Origin: Antedon mediterranea
Taxonomy: Eukaryota; Echinodermata; Crinoidea; Comatulida; Antedonidae
Reading direction: 5' to 3'
NCBI RefSeq assembly: GCF_964355755.1
Contig: NC_092678.1
Coordinates: 15,348,922 to 15,412,921 of the forward strand
DNA length: 64,000 nucleotides
Shown: in pieces, positions 3,265 to 50,289 of the stretch
Numbering within the stretch: the stretch's first letter is position 1
How the letters are laid out: each line of letters opens with the position of its first letter
Program-made: the position numbers and the translations under genes
Notes under the pieces: generated by a model
The model's database searches: none
What the model was told of the DNA's origin: nothing
Seen by the model: only the letters and a program-made list of their open reading frames with translations

Positions 3265-4139
3265 TGCCTTAAACATAAGATCAGAGAGTGGTGATGCAGC
3301 CACAGCACGAGCTGCAGGTGAAGAGGTCGTGAGGTGGTTTCCCGAATGATCGTAAAATCAAAACGGTACTGGGTATGACCAACTAGCGTTATTGTCACCG
3401 ACTAGTCATCCATTCATATAAGTACTGATGTAGTAGCCTACCTGTACGGTGACCATATAATGTGACCCGAGGCATGGCTAACTACGACTTTTAGTTGATA
3501 GAAGATTGAAAAAATTGTTAATAAGAGTTGTACTGTATGTGGATGTTTAATGAAATTATGTCAATAATGTTTACACACTAGGCATATAAATAGGGATAAG
3601 AAATTGTATTTTTAGGTTTCTTCTATAGCCCTCTCTGTTTTTGATAAAGGTGGTCTCCCATCTAACTTAAAACCATTAAAAGATTACTTGCTGAGTCCTT
3701 TAAAGTGTATATACTGTATAAGGTAATTAATAATTGTGCAATATTAAAAACAATGCAATATCAACAACTTTTAAAGTAAACATGCTTATGTATTCTGTAG
3801 TAACATTAATATATTTTAATGTTCAATATAAAGTTTAAACAGTTGAGTTCATAATATATTTTAACAAATTGAATACACTGTATTACACACGGTACAATAA
3901 TAATTGTGCAATATTAAAAACAATGCAATATAAACAACTTTTAAAGTAAATATGCTTATGTATTCTGTAGTAACATTAATATATTTTAATGTTCAATATA
4001 AAGTTTAAACAGTTGAGTTCATTTACAGTACTACTATAAATAAAATTGCCCTGAGACTTTACAGTATACCTAACTTACGTGTATCAATCTGATTGTATAA
4101 ATATGATCCAATGTATTACTGTATTAAAATTATTAACTT
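3265..4139. repeat. Harbinger intergenic region with 170-bp tandem duplication
   Basis: This lies between the two convergent Harbinger genes. ~3728-3851 is repeated almost identically at ~3898-4021, an offset of 170 bp (landmark TAATTGTGCAATATT). It is probably a local duplication inside the element. No ORF is supported. Confidence 0.8.
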
Positions 4140-14639: not shown

Positions 14640-16769
14640 TTCCTACAATCCATTTTGTTTCAACGTCAATATAGACCTAGACGTACTGACGTAGCCTTGT
14701 AACTTGTTACTTGTTACTTGTTTGCATAGCTATCCCCATTATTTGGCCGTCATTGACCTTATGTTGACATAGCACAAAAATGAGAGACGTTAATTTTGAT
14801 GAGAAGGTCATGGAACACTAATTAATTTTAAAAACAACTAAAAACCTGGGGCCTATAACCCTTGGTAGGGATCCTGACGGGTCAAAAGGATCCCGAAACT
14901 CATCGGTGGGCAGGGGCGCTCATCTCCCTGTTCAGGACTATTCCTGATGATTACCCAAGTAGAAACACAATCTGAAGAATATCTTGTGAAAAGAGTCTGA
15001 ATTGAGAAAGAGAAAGTAGAATTATTTCTCAATTTAACAAAAGCGATGCTGATCTGTAAAACACAATCAGAAAATAATTCCAACTATCAGTAAACGACAG
15101 AAATATTGAGTATTTGGCCAATTTAATTTTATCGGTATCATGGTTAATGTGAAACTCGATGACAGCGCAAACGCAAGCTGGGGGTTCAGCATGAACGTCA
15201 GGCTAGTTATCGAAAGGTTCAACATGAGATAAAAAAATTGTTTCAGTGTTCTCAATGTACATAATATAGTACAAAATTACGTCAGACTAGGGCAATTATA
15301 TTACGAATATTAAACACCATGATACAAAGATATTACATAGATATTACAAATACAATTAACACATATCGATTCAGTACTGCTTACTGTGGTTCGAATCTCA
15401 CCCTAGTCATCAGGAAAAGTGGCAAAACGGAATACCTCAATGGGTACCGGTTAGGAAAATACCTATCGTGATTCAATCTTTTGTGGCACGCGTGTTATTT
15501 TCCTCAAGTGTGCGCCGAACGTGAGCCGATAGCTCACAAAATTTCACTCTGCATGACATGTTCTGATTTATTATATGTCAGCGCGTGCCGTATAGCGTAG
15601 TAAGTAATTATCCAATCAGAAAATCGTGTGCTGAAGGCGTTTTTGGAATTTTTTTAGTGACTCAATTGCTTTTCGTGTCAGTTGGCTTATAAACACTACA
15701 TACAATGTTTTCGGAACCACTGATAGGTGGCACTGTACACGACTAAAGTGTTTACGGAACACATTCAATACTGTTCGTAGAGAGGAGAAATCAGGTAGCC
15801 AAAATGTTGACATTCTATCTTTGAATAGTTTCGAGAGGATTGCAAACCCTGAAAACATACGAAACAGTATATATTATCTAAGCCAAAATTGAATGTTATG
15901 ATTTTATTTAAATAACCTGTGACGTCACAAAGAACATCATCTTCGGCATGTCTTCGGAAGCAACGTCTTCAGAAGCATTATGATGCTCGAAAATGTCACC
16001 CAAACAAAGTTCAAGAAAACATGTCAACCCTGTTCTGATTAGTCGGTTAAAATTCTTACGTATAATGTATGTTTTATTCATTTATATACAAATTAAAACC
16101 CAATTGGATCGTTGAGGTGGGCTTGTGTTGAGGCTAACCTGTGGGTTACAGGATCTATTCTCTACTTGGCAATGTTTATAAATATTTTCTTTTAGTTTGA
16201 GAGAGATTATTTAGATGGTAGGCTTTTAATATTTAGGTTTTTTATCAAGGCAAATTCATTTTTTATAATTCTAAGCCGTCAGACAGATTAATGCACTAGT
16301 AGACAACAACAGACACTATCCCAACATTCACTTCCAACATCAAAATCAGTAAGTGAGAGGATGCATTCCCCGTATGGGTAATGCGTCCTATTCTCTTATC
16401 CTCTCATAATCCTTCATCAACTACAGTCATCTTCCAAGCACAGGAACATAACACACAAGTATGTGCAACATCAAAACAGTTCAAGACATGTACCAGTAGA
16501 TTGAAATCCCTTCACCATGCCTTCAACAAACACTGCACAAAGTCAACGCAATTTGTACCACCTGGTCATTTTGCTAAAACTTTCATCTTTTAATTTTTGT
16601 GCAGCGACACAACATCTATAAATGTACAGGTAACCGTTTTCATCTGGCCAGACGCAACACATGGGATATATATCTAGTTCTGAACAACTCTGGATACTGT
16701 ACGTTTTTTTTATTAACAACATGAATTAGGGTTGTCAAAGATGCGAATGCGAATTTAAGTATAGGGCTT
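14640..16769 (+). repeat. R1 repeat, copy 2, 5' two thirds
   Basis: This is the longest readable R1 copy. ~14660-14702 plus ~14957-15460 matches ~40945-41500. ~15640-16070 matches ~43560-43700 joined to ~48650-48900. ~16080-16440 matches ~49311-49600. ~14703-14956 is absent from copy 3 and looks like an insertion in this copy. No ORF is conserved. The repeat continues at 18195 after a fold-back insertion. Confidence 0.8.
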
Positions 16770-43163: not shown

Positions 43164-43704
43164 CGAGAAAATTTTACTAGAATTTTAAGAATATGTTATT
43201 ACCCCACATACTTTAATCGTATAGCTTTAATACCTTCTTAATGTTGATATAGCGTGGGTAGTTTTAAACAACAGTCTTTCTGACTATGTTATTGACAACA
43301 TTGGAATTATACTTTTATATTTTATTGACCTTTCCCATTATGTTGCTAATTAACTCAGGAGAATGAATATGGTGGTTTTTTATTTCAAAGTAAAATTGTA
43401 CTCAATTAACTTTTCTAGTTCATTAATTAAATTAAAAGGCATGTGTGACCAACCCAATTATAATAAGGTACTATCAATACACTCATCTTGACCAACTTAA
43501 TTCTCGATCCTTACATACAGTATACAGATCAGAATGTCTTAAAAACGTAGCATGGATAAGTAATTTCACTCTTTCGTGGTAATAGACACTACACGCAATG
43601 TTCCCGGAACCACTCAATACTTTCGTAGGAAAAATCAGGTAATTACATAAAATGTCCCAGATATGTATTGTAGCCAACATTTTTACATTGTATCTCACGG
43701 AACG
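43164..43704 (+). repeat. R1 repeat, copy 3, middle part
   Basis: ~43215-43300 matches ~1415-1480 (ACCTTCTTAATGTTGATATA). ~43535-43704 matches ~1485-1550 and ~15690-15830. ~43300-43530 has no match in copies 1 or 2. Confidence 0.75.
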
Positions 43705-44036
43705 GTTCTAGGACACCTACCCCCTAGACAGTTACCCCCCGGATGTTTACCACCCGGACAACTACCCCCTTAGGACAACTACCCCCCGGACAACTATCCC
43801 CCGGACAACTACCCCCTTAGGACAACTACCCCCTTAGGATAACAACCCCCCGGACAACTACCCCCCGGACAACCACCCCCTTAGGACAACTACCCCCTTA
43901 GGATAACTACCCCCCGGTCAACTACCCCCCGGTCAACTACCCCCCGGTCAACTACCCCCCCCCCCCCCACCCCAATCCAAAAGTAGACAAATATATAGGA
44001 CCGGTTTCTGTAAAAATGAAATCATCTGTTTTTAAC

Positions 44037-44418
44037 GGGTGTTTCGAAACTAGAGACCCGAGACCAGAGACCTGACACGAGACCCAATACGAAAAGGGAG
44101 ACCTATATTTGGGTCTCCCTTTTCGTATATTAGGGTCTCCCTTTTTGTATAGTGGGTCTCCCTTTTCGTATATTTAGGTCTCCCATTTCGTATATTTGGG
44201 TCTCCCTTTTCGTATATTTGGTCTCCCTTTTCGTATATTTAGGTCTCCCTTTTCGTATATTAGGGTCTCCCTTTTCGTATAGCGGGGTCTCCCTTTTCGT
44301 ATAGTGGGGTCTCCCTTTTCGTACGTGGGTCTCCCTTTTCGTATATTTAGGTCTCCCTTTTCGTATTGGGTCTCGGGTCTCTGGTCTCTGGTCTCGGGTC
44401 TCCAGTTTCGAAACACCC
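44037..44418. mobile_element. Small fold-back element with GGTCTCCCTTTTCGTATA array (F4)
   Basis: Ends GGGTGTTTCGAAACT and AGTTTCGAAACACCC are perfect complements, followed inward by GAGACCC/GGGTCTC repeats in inverted orientation. About ten ~20-23-bp GGTCTCCCTTTTCGTATA units fill the centre. It is flanked by the 9-mer GTTTTTAAC (44028-44036, 44419-44427). The 80-codon frame across it (repeats of IRKGRP type) is a translation of the satellite. Confidence 0.92.
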
Positions 44419-44427
44419 GTTTTTAAC

Positions 44428-45006
44428 CGATTATTCTGTTTAACAGCACGCTAGACCCTAGATGTGCTAGATTTAAAGTACCGTATTTATTGAAAAAACG
44501 GCCTGGGCTGTTTATTGTTTAGGTGGTTTTTAGGTGGACATTTATTGGAAAAAAGTTGTTTATTCAATGGGAGGGGGTATAATCTAATGGAAATAGACGC
44601 CGATTATTCCATATGATGTTTCATGGGAGTGACATGGTCACCGTTTATTTGAGGGGAATTTATTTAAAGATCGACGTTTATTCGGCGAGTGAACATTGAG
44701 GTCAAATATCAAAAGTGATATTATTCTTCAAGTGTACAAAAATACATATATGACAAATTTGAGACAAAAATTAATTCTTTTAAGACCAGTGGTTATCGAA
44801 GCATTGTCCTGACGCAAAAATTATTATTATTATTAGCGAACCCAGTCTTTACAGTAAATACATGGAGTACTATATAATACGTTCGACTATCCTATGATCA
44901 TGTGTGACAATCTTCAGTTTATACCACCAGGCTATATTTATGTTCAATCTTTTACTTTTGTTTACAATAATGAATAGCAATTCGTCAAAGTAACGAATTA
45001 AAATAT
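44428..45006. other. F3 internal sequence
   Basis: CGTTTATT-rich sequence at ~44500-44690, then AT-rich sequence with an ATT microsatellite (~44820). No ORF. It may be original core of the F3 element. Confidence 0.5.
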
Positions 45007-48000
45007 AGTTTATTTATTTATTTATTTCGTTTTCTTTTAGTAGGGTAGCCCTCTCAGTAATAAAATAAAACTGCTCTTCCGAGGGGCCCTACGGCACATT
45101 TAAACAAAATTTGAAAACAACTTAAACTAAACTTAAACTAAAACTTAAACTAAAACTAAACTTCAATGCATGTTCTCATTATTATTATACTTTTATACCA
45201 TATTTAAATATATTTCACTGGAACCATCCTAGACCACCGGCAACAATAAATGAATCTTAACAAGTGATTTAAAACGGTTATAATTGTTTTGTTTTCTTAA
45301 TTCATAAGGTAGGCCATTCCAGAGTGAACTTCCATAATAAACAAAACTACGTTTGTATATTTCGAGGTTACATCTGGGCAAATACAACAGATTATTTTCA
45401 TAGTTTCTGGTTTGAATATTGTGTACACTACTAATATATTGCAAAACATTACATAAGTATGAAGGTACAGATTCTTGTAAACATCTAAATATTGAACAAA
45501 TTGTATGATATTCAATTCTTGTCTTAATTGTTAGCCAACCTAATTTATAATGCATTTGTCTAACAGGAGTTCGAATATCAGCACCTAGTATTAATCGTGC
45601 AGCTCTATTTTGTACCCTTTGCAATTTTAAAATATGGGCGTTTGAACCAGTACCCCAGACTGTTGAACAATAGTCAATATGTGATAAAAATAGAGCATTG
45701 TATAATCTTTTAATAATTTTAGGAGATGTAAAACTTTTCAATCTATAAAATAGATGTAGAATTTTTGATAGTTTTGCACATATAGAATCAATATGTACTT
45801 TCCATGAGAGTTGTTCATCAAATGTAAGTCCCAAATATTTAAACGTTTCAACTTTCTCAATCGGAATGTTATCAAAAATTACTGTTTCATCTGTTGTTTT
45901 ATTAACACGTGCATGAGTACCAAAAAGCATGTATTTGGTTTTATCAATGTTTAGAGTTAATTTATGTTTATCTAACCATTGTTTTACATTTTCCAACTGT
46001 TCAGTTAAAACTGTTGTAAGCTCTTCATTTGATTTACATGCATAAAAAAGCGCAGTGTCGTCTGCATAGAGGACTGTTTTACAAATCCCATCAACACTAT
46101 CATGTAAGTCATTTATGTATAAAATAAACAACAAAGGGCCAAGAATTGAGCCTTGTGGTACCCCATAGTTGACATTTAAAATTTCAGATTTTTTTCCATT
46201 AAAATTAACAAATTGTTTGCGATTTTTTAAATAATTACTGAACCATGCAAGCTCAGTGTTTATCATTCCAAAGGTGCATAATTTACGTAATAAAATATCG
46301 TGGTCTACCGTATCAAACGCCTTTTTTAGGTCAAGAAAAATTGCTCCAGTTACCAAGCCATTATCAATATTTTTATATATATAATTGCATACATCTATCA
46401 GTGTAGTAGAAGTTGAATGTAACGACCTAAAACCAGATTGATTTTTACATAATAAATTAAACTCATTTATATGATTCATAACTTGATTATGGATGCATCT
46501 CTCAAAAACTTTCATAACAATAGGTATAACAGATATTGGACGGTAGTTGTTAAGTTCATGTTTACATCCTCCTTTATAAAGCGGAGTAACCTTAGCACAT
46601 TTCCATTCACTTGGAATAACACCAGATCTTAATGACCAGTTAAACAAAAAGGCAAGACTTTGAGAAATTTGTGAAGATGCAATTTTAAGTAACCTAGCGG
46701 AAATCCCATCAATTCCAGTAGCTTTTCCAATTTCTAACTTTTCCAACAAAGCTTCAATTTCATTTCCATTAATATCTTTAAAGTTGAAACGTTGTTGAAA
46801 TTGTGATAACGATTCAACGGTAATATCGTTTTGGTTGTCATTAAAATGGGATGCAAGTTCATTAGAAATTGAACAAAAATATTTATTAAAATGATTAGCA
46901 ATATCAGTTGGATTGTTTATTTCATTACCGTTTACATTGAGAGTTGTTTTAGTTTGTTTCTTTTTATTGGGTAAAAAGTCTTTCATGGTTTTCCATAATG
47001 TTTTAGTGTCATTAACATTATCCTTTAATTTATTATTTATATAGTCGCGTTTTAGTGATTTAGACAAATTATTTAATTTATTTCTTGCCTTTTTGTAAGA
47101 ATTACAATCATCTATGTTCTTAGTTTTTTCGGCTTTTTGTTTTAAATAATCACGGTCACGAGAAAGGGAAACAAATTCGTCTGTAAGCCATGGAATATCA
47201 GTTCCCTTCCTCCTGACCGTCACCATAGGAGCATGAATATCACAAATATCAGTAAAAATGTGTTTCCAAATGTCCCAAGCCTCGTCAGCATCCTCGGACG
47301 CCTCACAAATACTCCACGGAGCAGATGCAAGATCAGAAATAAACAAATCTTCGTTAAATTTCCGGAAGGTTCTCGTATGTAAAATACGCGGGGGCAATTT
47401 TATTTTAATTTTTTTACGTATTGCATATATCAATGAGTGATCGCTAATTCCAATTGGTACAACTCCAGTTTTGCTTATAAAGTCATCCCTATTTGAAAAA
47501 ATTAAATCAATACAACTACTACTGTTTTCCGTTACGCGCGTTGGAGTTTTAATATACTGGTTTAATTGGAAAATTTGGTGGAGGGTTTTAATGTTCCGAG
47601 AATGCTGTTTATCAAATATATTCCAATTTAAGTCACCAACAACAATAATCTCTCTTATACTATCTAGTATAAAAGATATTTGATCATGCATTATATCAAC
47701 AAATCCAGTACACGAATTTGGTGGTCTATAAACATTACCTATAACGAACGGTTTAGTGTTAACCGGCTTAATTTTTATCCATACCGATTCAATTGTATTT
47801 TCACCAAAGTCAATGACATCAAAATCAACATTTTCGTTTACATAGATAGCCACCCCACCTCCGTGTCTATTTCTGTCTGTTCTAACTAATAGGTATCCTG
47901 GGATTGCAAGTTCACTATTATGTATATTTTGATCTAGCCAGGTTTCACTAATTCCTAAAACATGGAAACGGCATTCCGAAAGTAAACTCCGAACATGGTC

Positions 48001-48245
48001 CACCTTATTAGAGAGACTTCTGACATTTAAATGACCAATTTTAAAACCCTTTGTACAATCAATCTCGCATAATTTGCATAGTATGCCAAAAGCAGGATAA
48101 ACAATAGAGTCGTTACGTAATTCAGCGTCGTCTACGTCGTTGTCTAAAAGGCTTCCCGTACGATGTTCGTTTAACAATTGAATTGGTTTAAATGGTTTAT
48201 TACATGCGTTACAAATAAAATCTAAAATCATCTTATCTACATAAA
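45007..48245 (-). mobile_element. CR1/Jockey-like LINE inside the fold-back element
   Basis: Contains an uninterrupted ORF2, a ~220-bp 3' untranslated region with a stem formed by GTAGGGCCCCTC and GAGGGCTACCCTAC (~45040-45095), and a terminal AAAT microsatellite (~45007-45030). Such a stem plus microsatellite tail is typical of CR1-like LINEs. No ORF1 lies upstream, so the copy is 5'-truncated or uses a single ORF. The target duplication was not resolved. Confidence 0.85.
45229..48231 (-). CDS. LINE ORF2: APE endonuclease plus reverse transcriptase, intact
   Basis: 1000 codons with no stop. Residues ~1-60 hold two CxxC pairs (CNACNKPF, CKLCEIDC). The APE-type endonuclease spans ~65-275: GHLNVRSLSNK, GISETWLD (catalytic E), GGGVAIYV, VVGDLNWNIFD, and GISDHSLIYA (catalytic DH). 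Reverse transcriptase spans ~500-800: KVTPLYKGG, NNYRPISVIPIVMKVFE, GAIFLDLKKAFDTVDH (motif A), VPQGSILGPLLFILYIND (motif B) and VLYADDTALF (catalytic DD). The C-terminus has SHIDYCSTVWG and YGSSLWNGLPYELR. It nicks target DNA and primes cDNA synthesis there. All key residues are present, so the copy is young and may still make active protein; full mobility would also require an intact 5' end. Confidence 0.95.
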   Translation of the reverse strand: MILDFICNACNKPFKPIQLLNEHRTGSLLDNDVDDAELRNDSIVYPAFGILCKLCEIDCTKGFKIGHLNVRSLSNKVDHVRSLLSECRFHVLGISETWLDQNIHNSELAIPGYLLVRTDRNRHGGGVAIYVNENVDFDVIDFGENTIESVWIKIKPVNTKPFVIGNVYRPPNSCTGFVDIMHDQISFILDSIREIIVVGDLNWNIFDKQHSRNIKTLHQIFQLNQYIKTPTRVTENSSSCIDLIFSNRDDFISKTGVVPIGISDHSLIYAIRKKIKIKLPPRILHTRTFRKFNEDLFISDLASAPWSICEASEDADEAWDIWKHIFTDICDIHAPMVTVRRKGTDIPWLTDEFVSLSRDRDYLKQKAEKTKNIDDCNSYKKARNKLNNLSKSLKRDYINNKLKDNVNDTKTLWKTMKDFLPNKKKQTKTTLNVNGNEINNPTDIANHFNKYFCSISNELASHFNDNQNDITVESLSQFQQRFNFKDINGNEIEALLEKLEIGKATGIDGISARLLKIASSQISQSLAFLFNWSLRSGVIPSEWKCAKVTPLYKGGCKHELNNYRPISVIPIVMKVFERCIHNQVMNHINEFNLLCKNQSGFRSLHSTSTTLIDVCNYIYKNIDNGLVTGAIFLDLKKAFDTVDHDILLRKLCTFGMINTELAWFSNYLKNRKQFVNFNGKKSEILNVNYGVPQGSILGPLLFILYINDLHDSVDGICKTVLYADDTALFYACKSNEELTTVLTEQLENVKQWLDKHKLTLNIDKTKYMLFGTHARVNKTTDETVIFDNIPIEKVETFKYLGLTFDEQLSWKVHIDSICAKLSKILHLFYRLKSFTSPKIIKRLYNALFLSHIDYCSTVWGTGSNAHILKLQRVQNRAARLILGADIRTPVRQMHYKLGWLTIKTRIEYHTICSIFRCLQESVPSYLCNVLQYISSVHNIQTRNYENNLLYLPRCNLEIYKRSFVYYGSSLWNGLPYELRKQNNYNRFKSLVKIHLLLPVV

Positions 48246-48330
48246 ATACAATACAGATTTAGGACATTTTATTAATTAATAGTTGCAGAGTCAGGTTGTT
48301 GAATGGTCTGGGTGGTTAGGGTGTTCTAAA
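48246..48330. other. Junction between LINE 5' end and right minisatellite arm
   Basis: Short AT-rich sequence; the precise LINE 5' junction cannot be placed. Confidence 0.4.
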
Positions 48331-48624
48331 GGGATAGTTTTCTGGGTGGTAATTGTCCGGGGGGTAATTGTCCGGGGGTAATTGTCCGAGGGGTAATTGT
48401 TCCTAGGGGGTAATTGTCCGGGGGGTAGTTGTCCAGGGGGTAGTTGTCCTAAGGGGGTTGTTGTCCTAAGGGGGTAGTTGTCCGGGGGGTATTTGTCCGG
48501 GGGGTAGTTGTCCTAAAGGGGTAGTTGTCCTAAGGGGGTAGTGGTCCAGGTGGTGGTTGTCCGGGGGGTAGTTGTCCGGGGGGTAAATGTCCAGGGGGTG
48601 AATATCCGGATACGCACGGAACGC

Positions 48625-48901
48625 CTTAGAATGGTTTAAAGAGGGTTGAAAACGCTGTAAAACATACGAACTAAAAATTTGAGCACAAAAATGAATTTTC
48701 TGATTCCATCAATAACTTGTGACGTCACAGAAAACTTCATCTTCGGCATGTCTTCGGAAACAACCTCTTCGAAAGCATCGGGATGCTTGGAAATGTCATC
48801 CAAATTTAAAGTTCAAGAAAAGATGTCAACCCTGTTCTGATTGGTCGGTTAAAATTCGTATGTATAAGGTGTGTTATATTCATTCATATACAAAGTAAAA
48901 C
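48625..48901 (+). repeat. R1 repeat, copy 3, after F3
   Basis: Matches ~15815-16090 (AACATACGAA, CATCTTCGGCATGTCTTCGG, GTCAACCCTGTTCTGATT). Interrupted at 48901. Confidence 0.85.
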
Positions 48902-49310
48902 CAAAGAACTTATAACACAAGAATCTCCTGTTCTTCAATTTGCATTCAAAACACAGTATCGGAAGTACAGGGTTAAAAGGTCAAACTGGGCGACGCCATT
49001 TCACAGCATGGAACAGCACCCCCTCCAAACTAGGAAGTCAATTGCTATACCCCCTAGAGTATTAGCAGATCCCCTCTATGATTTTGACTTTCTAATTTGA
49101 TGCGGGCGCCCTACTCGTCAGTCAATTACTTTATCCCCCCCTAGAGCATTAGCAGATCCCCTCTATGATTTTGACTTTCTAATTTGATGCGGGCGCCCTA
49201 CTCCATGGCTCACAATGGCGCCACCCATAGCTCTATTCTATCCCACAATGCCTTTCGAAATTGTTACCCGCTTCGGACGAACAGGAGATTCTTGTGTTAT
49301 AAGTTCTTTG
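48902..49310. mobile_element. CAAAGAA-ended element, second copy
   Basis: 409 bp with a ~32-bp inverted repeat starting CAAAGAACTTATAACACAAG. It is flanked by GTAAAAC (48895-48901, 49311-49317); R1 copy 2 has TTAAAACCCAATTGG uninterrupted at ~16096. Its ends match the 42223 element at CAAAGAANNTATANCACAAG, defining one family. An ~88-bp tandem duplication (TTAGCAGATCCCCTCTATG) occupies ~49050-49200. Confidence 0.9.
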
Positions 49311-49680
49311 GTAAAACCCAATTGGATCGACGAGTTGGATCGTCCAGTTGGCTTGTGGGTTAGGTTTTTAATAATTAGGACGAGTTTTATTATTTATGTT
49401 TTTCATTAAGACAAGTTCATAGTTGATAAATCTAAGCCATCAGACAGATAGATGCACTATTAGACGACGATACATGACCAATGTGAGTACAGACATTATC
49501 CCAACATTCACTTCCAAAATCAAAATCAGTAGGTGAGAGGATTCATTCTCCGTATGGGTAATGGATTCTCACCACCAGAATCATTCATCAACTACAGTCA
49601 TCCTCCAAACACAGGAACATAACACAAAAGTATGAGCAACATCAAATCAGTTCAAGACATGTACTTGTGCTGACCTCACG
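49311..49680 (+). repeat. R1 repeat, copy 3, last recognised part
   Basis: Matches ~16096-16490 (CCCAATTGGATCG, CAACATTCACTTCCAA, GAGGAT/GCATTC…CCGTATGGGTAATG). Confidence 0.8.
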
Positions 49681-50289
49681 AGCTTTGCGAACCGTCAACC
49701 CCGCTATTCAGTAGATAAATCCAATCCCCGACAAAAAATACTGCAACAAAATAACTTGTTGACTTACTCTTTCATACAGCAAATTCAGCCATAAACAGGG
49801 TGAACTGAAATTAAGCATACTTAAATCCAGCTCCAAATAGTATTAATAAACATAACATAAATAGAAAACTATCTGCAAAACAGATCAAACGTAGCACCCT
49901 CTTACGAAGGTGTACATGTGTAAACAAGGTATCAAATAATCAACAGTGCCCTAATACGGGCGTGGCTAATTCTATAGATACATCATATAGAACAGCGCCC
50001 TCTACACGGAGACTGTGTTTATCGTATATACAATTCACTAGCAATTAATACCCACCCCAGGGCGGGTTTCAAAATTAGTTTAAAGGCTTCTCAGTATAAC
50101 ACCCAACGCCAGTATGTCCCTATACTTATCACACCCCACACTGCTTTTTTGAAAACAAACGCTTCCCAGAACAAATTCAACTTCTAATGAGAAGAGTATA
50201 CATAGCTAAGTATAGGCCTATAGGGTATAAGTACGTTGTAAACTTTGTAAATGAATAGGTGTCATATAGGCTGATAATTAAAATATCTA
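49681..50289. other. Unassigned stretch
   Basis: No ORF, no obvious inverted or tandem repeats, and no match elsewhere in the window noticed. Confidence 0.4.

Follow-up and report, generated by a model that had tools for sequence, protein, structure and literature searches.

The window, a 64-kb stretch of DNA (C9:15348922-15412921 of a 354-Mb, 18-contig genome), contains a fold-back element at 43704-48614 on the + strand that spans 4,911 bp, including a LINE insertion. The left arm (43711-43960, + strand) and the right arm (48344-48599, - strand) are inverted arrays of mixed 15- and 17-bp units, with arm-to-arm complementarity of up to 91% over 172 nt. Such long inverted arms built of tandem repeats are the hallmark of the fold-back structural class. 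With up to two mismatches, the arm unit GGACAACTACCCCC is matched 29 times in the window, 14 times on the + strand at 43711-43959 and 15 times on the - strand at 48345-48592, against 0.19 matches on average and never more than 2 in shuffled sequence, which bears out the preliminary description of the feature as a fold-back with inverted minisatellite arms. The left terminal motif, GGTTCTAGGACACCTACCCCC, lies at 43704-43724 (+ strand), and the right terminal motif at 48594-48614 reads CGTATCCGGATATTCACCCCC on the - strand. Between the arms lie an inner fold-back module at 44020-44435 (+ strand), in which inverted ends surround a 22-bp array, a core segment at 44440-44820 (+ strand), and the LINE, whose approximate borders are 45011-48268 (- strand). 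The LINE harbors an open frame of 1,009 aa at 45229-48258 (- strand) with endonuclease and reverse transcriptase domains.

The element is flanked by direct repeats. The preliminary description had reported an exact 9-bp target duplication, and indeed CACGGAACG is found exactly at 43696-43704 and 48615-48623, with no other mismatch-free match in the window. Comparison of family copies places the border differently by one base. A G is located directly 5′ of GTTCTAGG in 12 of 12 fetched copies, across differing targets (one of the 12, L003, shares the target of the window copy). Thus, the element starts at 43704, and the flanking repeat resolves into CACGGAAC followed by the element's own G. Most simply, therefore, the duplication of the window copy is 8 bp rather than 9, with the left copy of CACGGAAC at 43696-43703 and the right copy at 48615-48622 (+ strand), and the borders first proposed were correct to one base. 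An empty site had also been suggested. A diverged repeat copy at ~15600-16100 of the window aligns over the joined flanks and through the junction, with 81% identity on the right side, a heavily gapped left side, and an 11-nt gap at the position of the duplication. The related repeat spans the junction, but a single copy of the target is not visible there. Since the target letters are missing, the empty site is supportive rather than exact, and constitutes only moderate evidence.

The window region 43305-50126 and a second locus on the same contig, L003 (C9:15561796-15567796), form a segmental duplication located ~170 kb apart, with 98-99% identity over the aligned flanks. L003 contains a sister copy of 1,652 bp that has the same target duplication as the window copy and lacks the LINE. 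The preliminary description of the window copy as the carrier of a LINE is thus upheld, and the absence of the LINE from L003 indicates that it most simply arrived after the locus was duplicated.

Searches of the 354-Mb genome with the exact 21-bp ends revealed 230 matches to the left end and 217 to the right, and none to the reversed control sequences. The ends differ in motif, with GGTTCTAGG at one and CGTATCCGG at the other, and the arrays that follow them are related. To pair the ends, we compared 92 right ends, taken from the 100 listed (of 217), with the 100 left ends listed (of 230); eight right ends on contig C5 were dropped because the left ends listed stop on C4. An inverted exact left end was found within 25 kb for 78 of the 92 right ends and within 2.6 kb for 68, and the spacing was 1.0-2.4 kb in 63 of the 78 pairs. 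These data bear on the notion that the arms are chance arrays or free-standing minisatellites and not transposon ends. Short tandem arrays are indeed frequent in the window (63 overlapping rows), but minisatellites of this kind would not account for the pairing of 68 of 92 right ends with inverted left ends so close by, nor for the duplications described below.

For further analyses we used 58 end-intact copies, consisting of the window copy, 12 of 39 other search matches, five long pairs, and 40 of 60 pairs with 1.0-2.4 kb spacing. As 57 of the 58 were chosen through matches reaching the left end or through exact end motifs, decayed copies are under-represented and the uniformity of the ends is partly a product of selection. 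Three groups of sister loci among the 58 share a target (window/L003, L022/L023, and L037/L039/L040), which leaves at most 54 independent sites. Over the 381-bp core segment the median pairwise distance was 1.3% and the median nearest-neighbor distance 0.26%, as calculated for 55 of the 58 copies (three with short matches were dropped); some of the near-identical pairs are the segmental duplicates of one insertion in the three groups named above. From these distances we infer that the family was recently active. The window feature is thus one of hundreds of young fold-back copies.

Tabulation of the flanking repeats over the copies, a check proposed in the preliminary description, yielded mostly 8-10 bp repeats. 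Exact duplications of 8-10 bp flank 44 of the 58 copies, with 9 bp the commonest length (28 copies), followed by 8 bp (15 copies) and 10 bp (one copy). When the flanks were re-paired at random, exact 8-10 bp duplications numbered 0.8 on average and at most 5. After same-target loci were regrouped, 42 exact duplications remained among the at most 54 independent sites. Seven further copies (L007, L036, L037, L039, L040, L066, and L071, three of which represent one target) have a duplication with one mismatch, and in the remaining seven (L034, L035, L046, L051, L057, L061, and L069) no exact or one-mismatch duplication of 8-10 bp was found. Inspection of the target sequences by eye revealed no obvious common motif. 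Together, the pairing of the ends and the duplications refute the reading of the arms as chance or free-standing minisatellites, to which we assign a negligible probability. The lengths fall within the 8-11 bp duplications that characterize Mutator-like elements (MULEs).

The preliminary description had also suggested that a Mutator-like enzyme encoded elsewhere mobilizes the element and that a copy with a transposase-encoding core be sought. Such a copy was found. A genome search with the Pfam MULE model returned 36 matches, the best of which lies between right and left family ends on contig C2. This copy, L021, is 4,659 bp long, has terminal motifs identical to those of the family, and is flanked by its own 9-bp target duplication. 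Its gene runs from the right arm toward the left arm, and separate exons match FLYWCH (PF04500, E 2.2e-7) and MULE (PF10551, E 3.7e-16), with FLYWCH first and thus N-terminal; Pfam assigned no family to the last coding stretch or to one stretch between the FLYWCH and MULE exons. A MULE-domain transposase therefore resides between the same ends, and these domains, together with the 44 of 58 exact 8-10 bp duplications, provide good support for mobilization by a Mutator-like enzyme encoded elsewhere. DGTF, IDYE, and NHVEGWH motifs are visible in the L021 protein, and in our own reading they may represent a putative catalytic triad by comparison with the D-D-E catalytic residues given for Muta1 in the available text of its description (PMC5225508). 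Examined by eye and with no gene model, the L021 reading frame seems to be broken between its FLYWCH exon and its MULE exon, so this copy may be non-functional. No intact source copy of the transposase was found in the assembly, and among 40 of 112 candidates scored there was no second full-length match to the L021 core. The longer copies L022 and L023 (5.3 kb), L024 (5.5 kb), and L025 (8.3 kb) were rejected as coding copies, as their extra DNA is unlike the L021 core; that of L025 contains an open frame resembling, by eye, a reverse transcriptase. L030 and L031, two other MULE relatives that are partly similar at the DNA level (75-76% identity), lacked arms of this type within the 6-7 kb retrieved. 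At L021 positions 2241-2353, in or near a transposase intron, a ~100-bp stretch has dozens of genomic matches of 81-91% identity and appears to be a separate short repeat.

The N-terminal FLYWCH finger combined with a MULE domain, and inverted ends that contain short tandem repeats, are features of Phantom/Muta/Tm1-type elements. The Rehavkus branch, described in the available part of PMC6446971 as having a minisatellite, 9-bp duplications, and a PHD finger, offers another placement. The zinc finger that we found is FLYWCH, and a Pfam scan of four coding stretches of L021 detected no PHD finger; these stretches were delimited by a gene model drawn by eye, which may have missed an exon. Thus, membership in Rehavkus is very improbable.

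Does the transposase gene belong to the family, or is the L021 MULE a passenger within a fold-back of another superfamily (e.g., P/Galileo, hAT, or Merlin) that is mobilized by an unrelated transposase? Consistent with a passenger, the whole gene was found in one copy only (with 40 of 112 candidates scored), and the duplications are 8 bp long in 15 of 58 copies. Duplications of 8 bp also fit hAT or P elements. The commonest length, 9 bp in 28 of 58 copies, argues against a passenger, as does the structure of four shorter copies. In these copies, L026-L029, the right arm runs straight into the last exon or the 3′ flank of the L021 gene, with three different breakpoints (L021 positions 3393, in two copies, 3593, and 3606). 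That the right arm is repeatedly fused with 3′ parts of the gene or its 3′ flank indicates that the gene belongs to the family. All four copies are partly decayed and none retains both exact terminal motifs: the right motif is exact in L026 and L027, L028 has an exact left motif and a one-base variant of the right, and L029 has neither; the match of L026 to L021 stops at 4001. In addition, no separate high-identity inverted ends of at least 16 nt surround the gene. The longest inverted repeat in L021 960-4300, in a search that would miss ends under 16 nt, is 21 nt at 76% identity, which indicates that there are no long separate ends around the gene. Finally, the core of L021 is 96% identical to that of L003 over 381 nt. 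The derivatives, the missing ends, and the shared core would not be expected of a recent nested insertion of the gene, and we consider the passenger explanation improbable.

Collectively, these data make it very likely that the family consists of fold-back MULEs of the cut-and-paste type with recent activity, and that the window element is one of its non-autonomous copies. In such a scheme the L021 transposase, or a close relative missing from the assembly, would bind the tandem-repeat arms, cut at the GGTTCTAGG and CGTATCCGG termini, and insert the element in a staggered fashion to generate the 8-9 bp duplication. Judging from the domains and ends, an L021-type transposase probably moves the other copies of the family. 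The common ~1.7-kb form would have arisen by an internal deletion that removed the DNA between the 3′ end of the gene and the right arm, with a different segment now adjoining that arm. The LINE would have inserted later into the window copy. Several observations weigh against this account: L021 is the only coding copy found and its frame seems interrupted, none of L026-L029 retains both exact ends, seven of the 58 copies lack an exact or one-mismatch duplication, and ~230 bp adjacent to the right arm of the common form have no match in L021.

The inner fold-back had been regarded in the preliminary description as cargo of the window copy. It is present in 57 of the 58 copies, including L021, so it was not acquired by the window copy, and a cargo peculiar to that copy is rejected; given its presence in L021, the module is probably older than the divergence of coding from non-coding forms. 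Of 386 exact matches to the inner end in the genome, 100 were compared with the listed places of the family ends plus five core places, and 95 of the 100 lie within 3 kb of such a place. The five remaining matches were fetched. One, L074, is a truncated family copy, while the other four (L072, L073, L075, and L076) are solitary modules for which the ~2 kb of surrounding DNA retrieved contained nothing from the family, and they have a sharp end at or near (A)CGGGTGTTTCGAAAC and another end that varies inside the array. It is possible, though rather doubtful, that the MULE family transports the 22-bp module as cargo and that the module is a mobile repeat in its own right, fixed at a single end; its movement might then involve a 5′-truncating copy mechanism. 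TTTTA is visible by eye on both sides of the module (window 44020-44045 and 44415-44440), and could be a 5-bp target duplication of its own.

Fold-back MULEs have previously been described in insects and nematodes. By anatomy, the window family is of this known kind, a Phantom/Muta/Tm1-type fold-back MULE. One of the closest known parallels is Tm1, a Mutator/Foldback family of root-knot nematodes (PMC3169594, available text). Tm1 has composite arms with tandem repeats of 13-15 bp, asymmetric ends with different short motifs, 8-10 bp duplications (9 bp in 45 of 53), and a FLYWCH and MULE transposase in one copy, and its derivatives in M. hapla, as here, keep mainly the DNA 3′ of the MULE domain (PMC3169594). 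Compared with what that text gives for Tm1, the window family has another repeat sequence, another host, far more copies (230 exact left ends), and a fixed inner 22-bp module. The Muta1 and Muta5 MULEs of Aedes aegypti, in the part of their description available, likewise share duplications of 8 or 9 bp, subterminal tandem repeats of 12-15 bp, a FLYWCH and DDE transposase, and hundreds of derivatives (PMC5225508). Muta1, termed a type 2 foldback, is active in yeast. The same text gives arms of ~150 bp, compared with ~250 bp in the window family, and several identical coding copies, in contrast to the single, apparently interrupted one found here (PMC5225508). The Phantom clade, as far as the available text of PMC6446971 describes it, shows 8-10 bp duplications, a FLYWCH finger in some members, inverted repeats of variable length, and, in aphids, a minisatellite after the transposase; this likeness is one of anatomy. 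Tetris of Drosophila virilis is a non-autonomous fold-back with tandem repeats in its arms and 8-10 bp duplications, and its authors suggest a Mutator origin from the duplication length and from other fold-backs (PMC4079207, available text). Its repeats are 220 bp, and the available text reports no transposase-bearing copy, whereas one was found here.

What seems to be new is the family itself, its size, the fixed inner module, and the preserved intermediates; no published description of it was found in literature searched by means other than its sequence. Some fold-backs, such as Tetris in the available text of PMC4079207, are known only from non-coding copies, so that their transposase is deduced from the duplication length. 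In the present case, a single genome combines a large young family with a coding copy and with intermediates, L026-L029, that suggest how the non-coding form arose. Sea-urchin TU elements have inverted arms of short tandem repeats of 15 bp. Their likeness to the window family is structural only; if homology with TU elements were established, a FLYWCH-type MULE would be the enzyme that they use.

Several copies depart from the common structure. At L005 (C8:28212937-28217760), the right ends of two family copies face each other, and GTTTTATT occurs three times, to the left, between, and to the right, as if the second insertion had used the target duplication of the first or a head-to-head pair had moved as a unit. 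A ~2.3-kb subfamily (L002, L005, L008, L033, and L044) has two inner modules, and two exact left ends are present in L008, L033, and L044, the three whose places were listed. This subfamily occupies five sites whose 8-9 bp duplications differ, which indicates that the extra internal left end did not stop its spread. Lastly, in the duplicated pair L022 (1812-5464) and L023 (1773-5424), the right arm is interrupted by a distinct insert of 3.65 kb. Its inverted repeats are ~600 bp long and 82% identical, and by its structure it appears to be another fold-back-like element.
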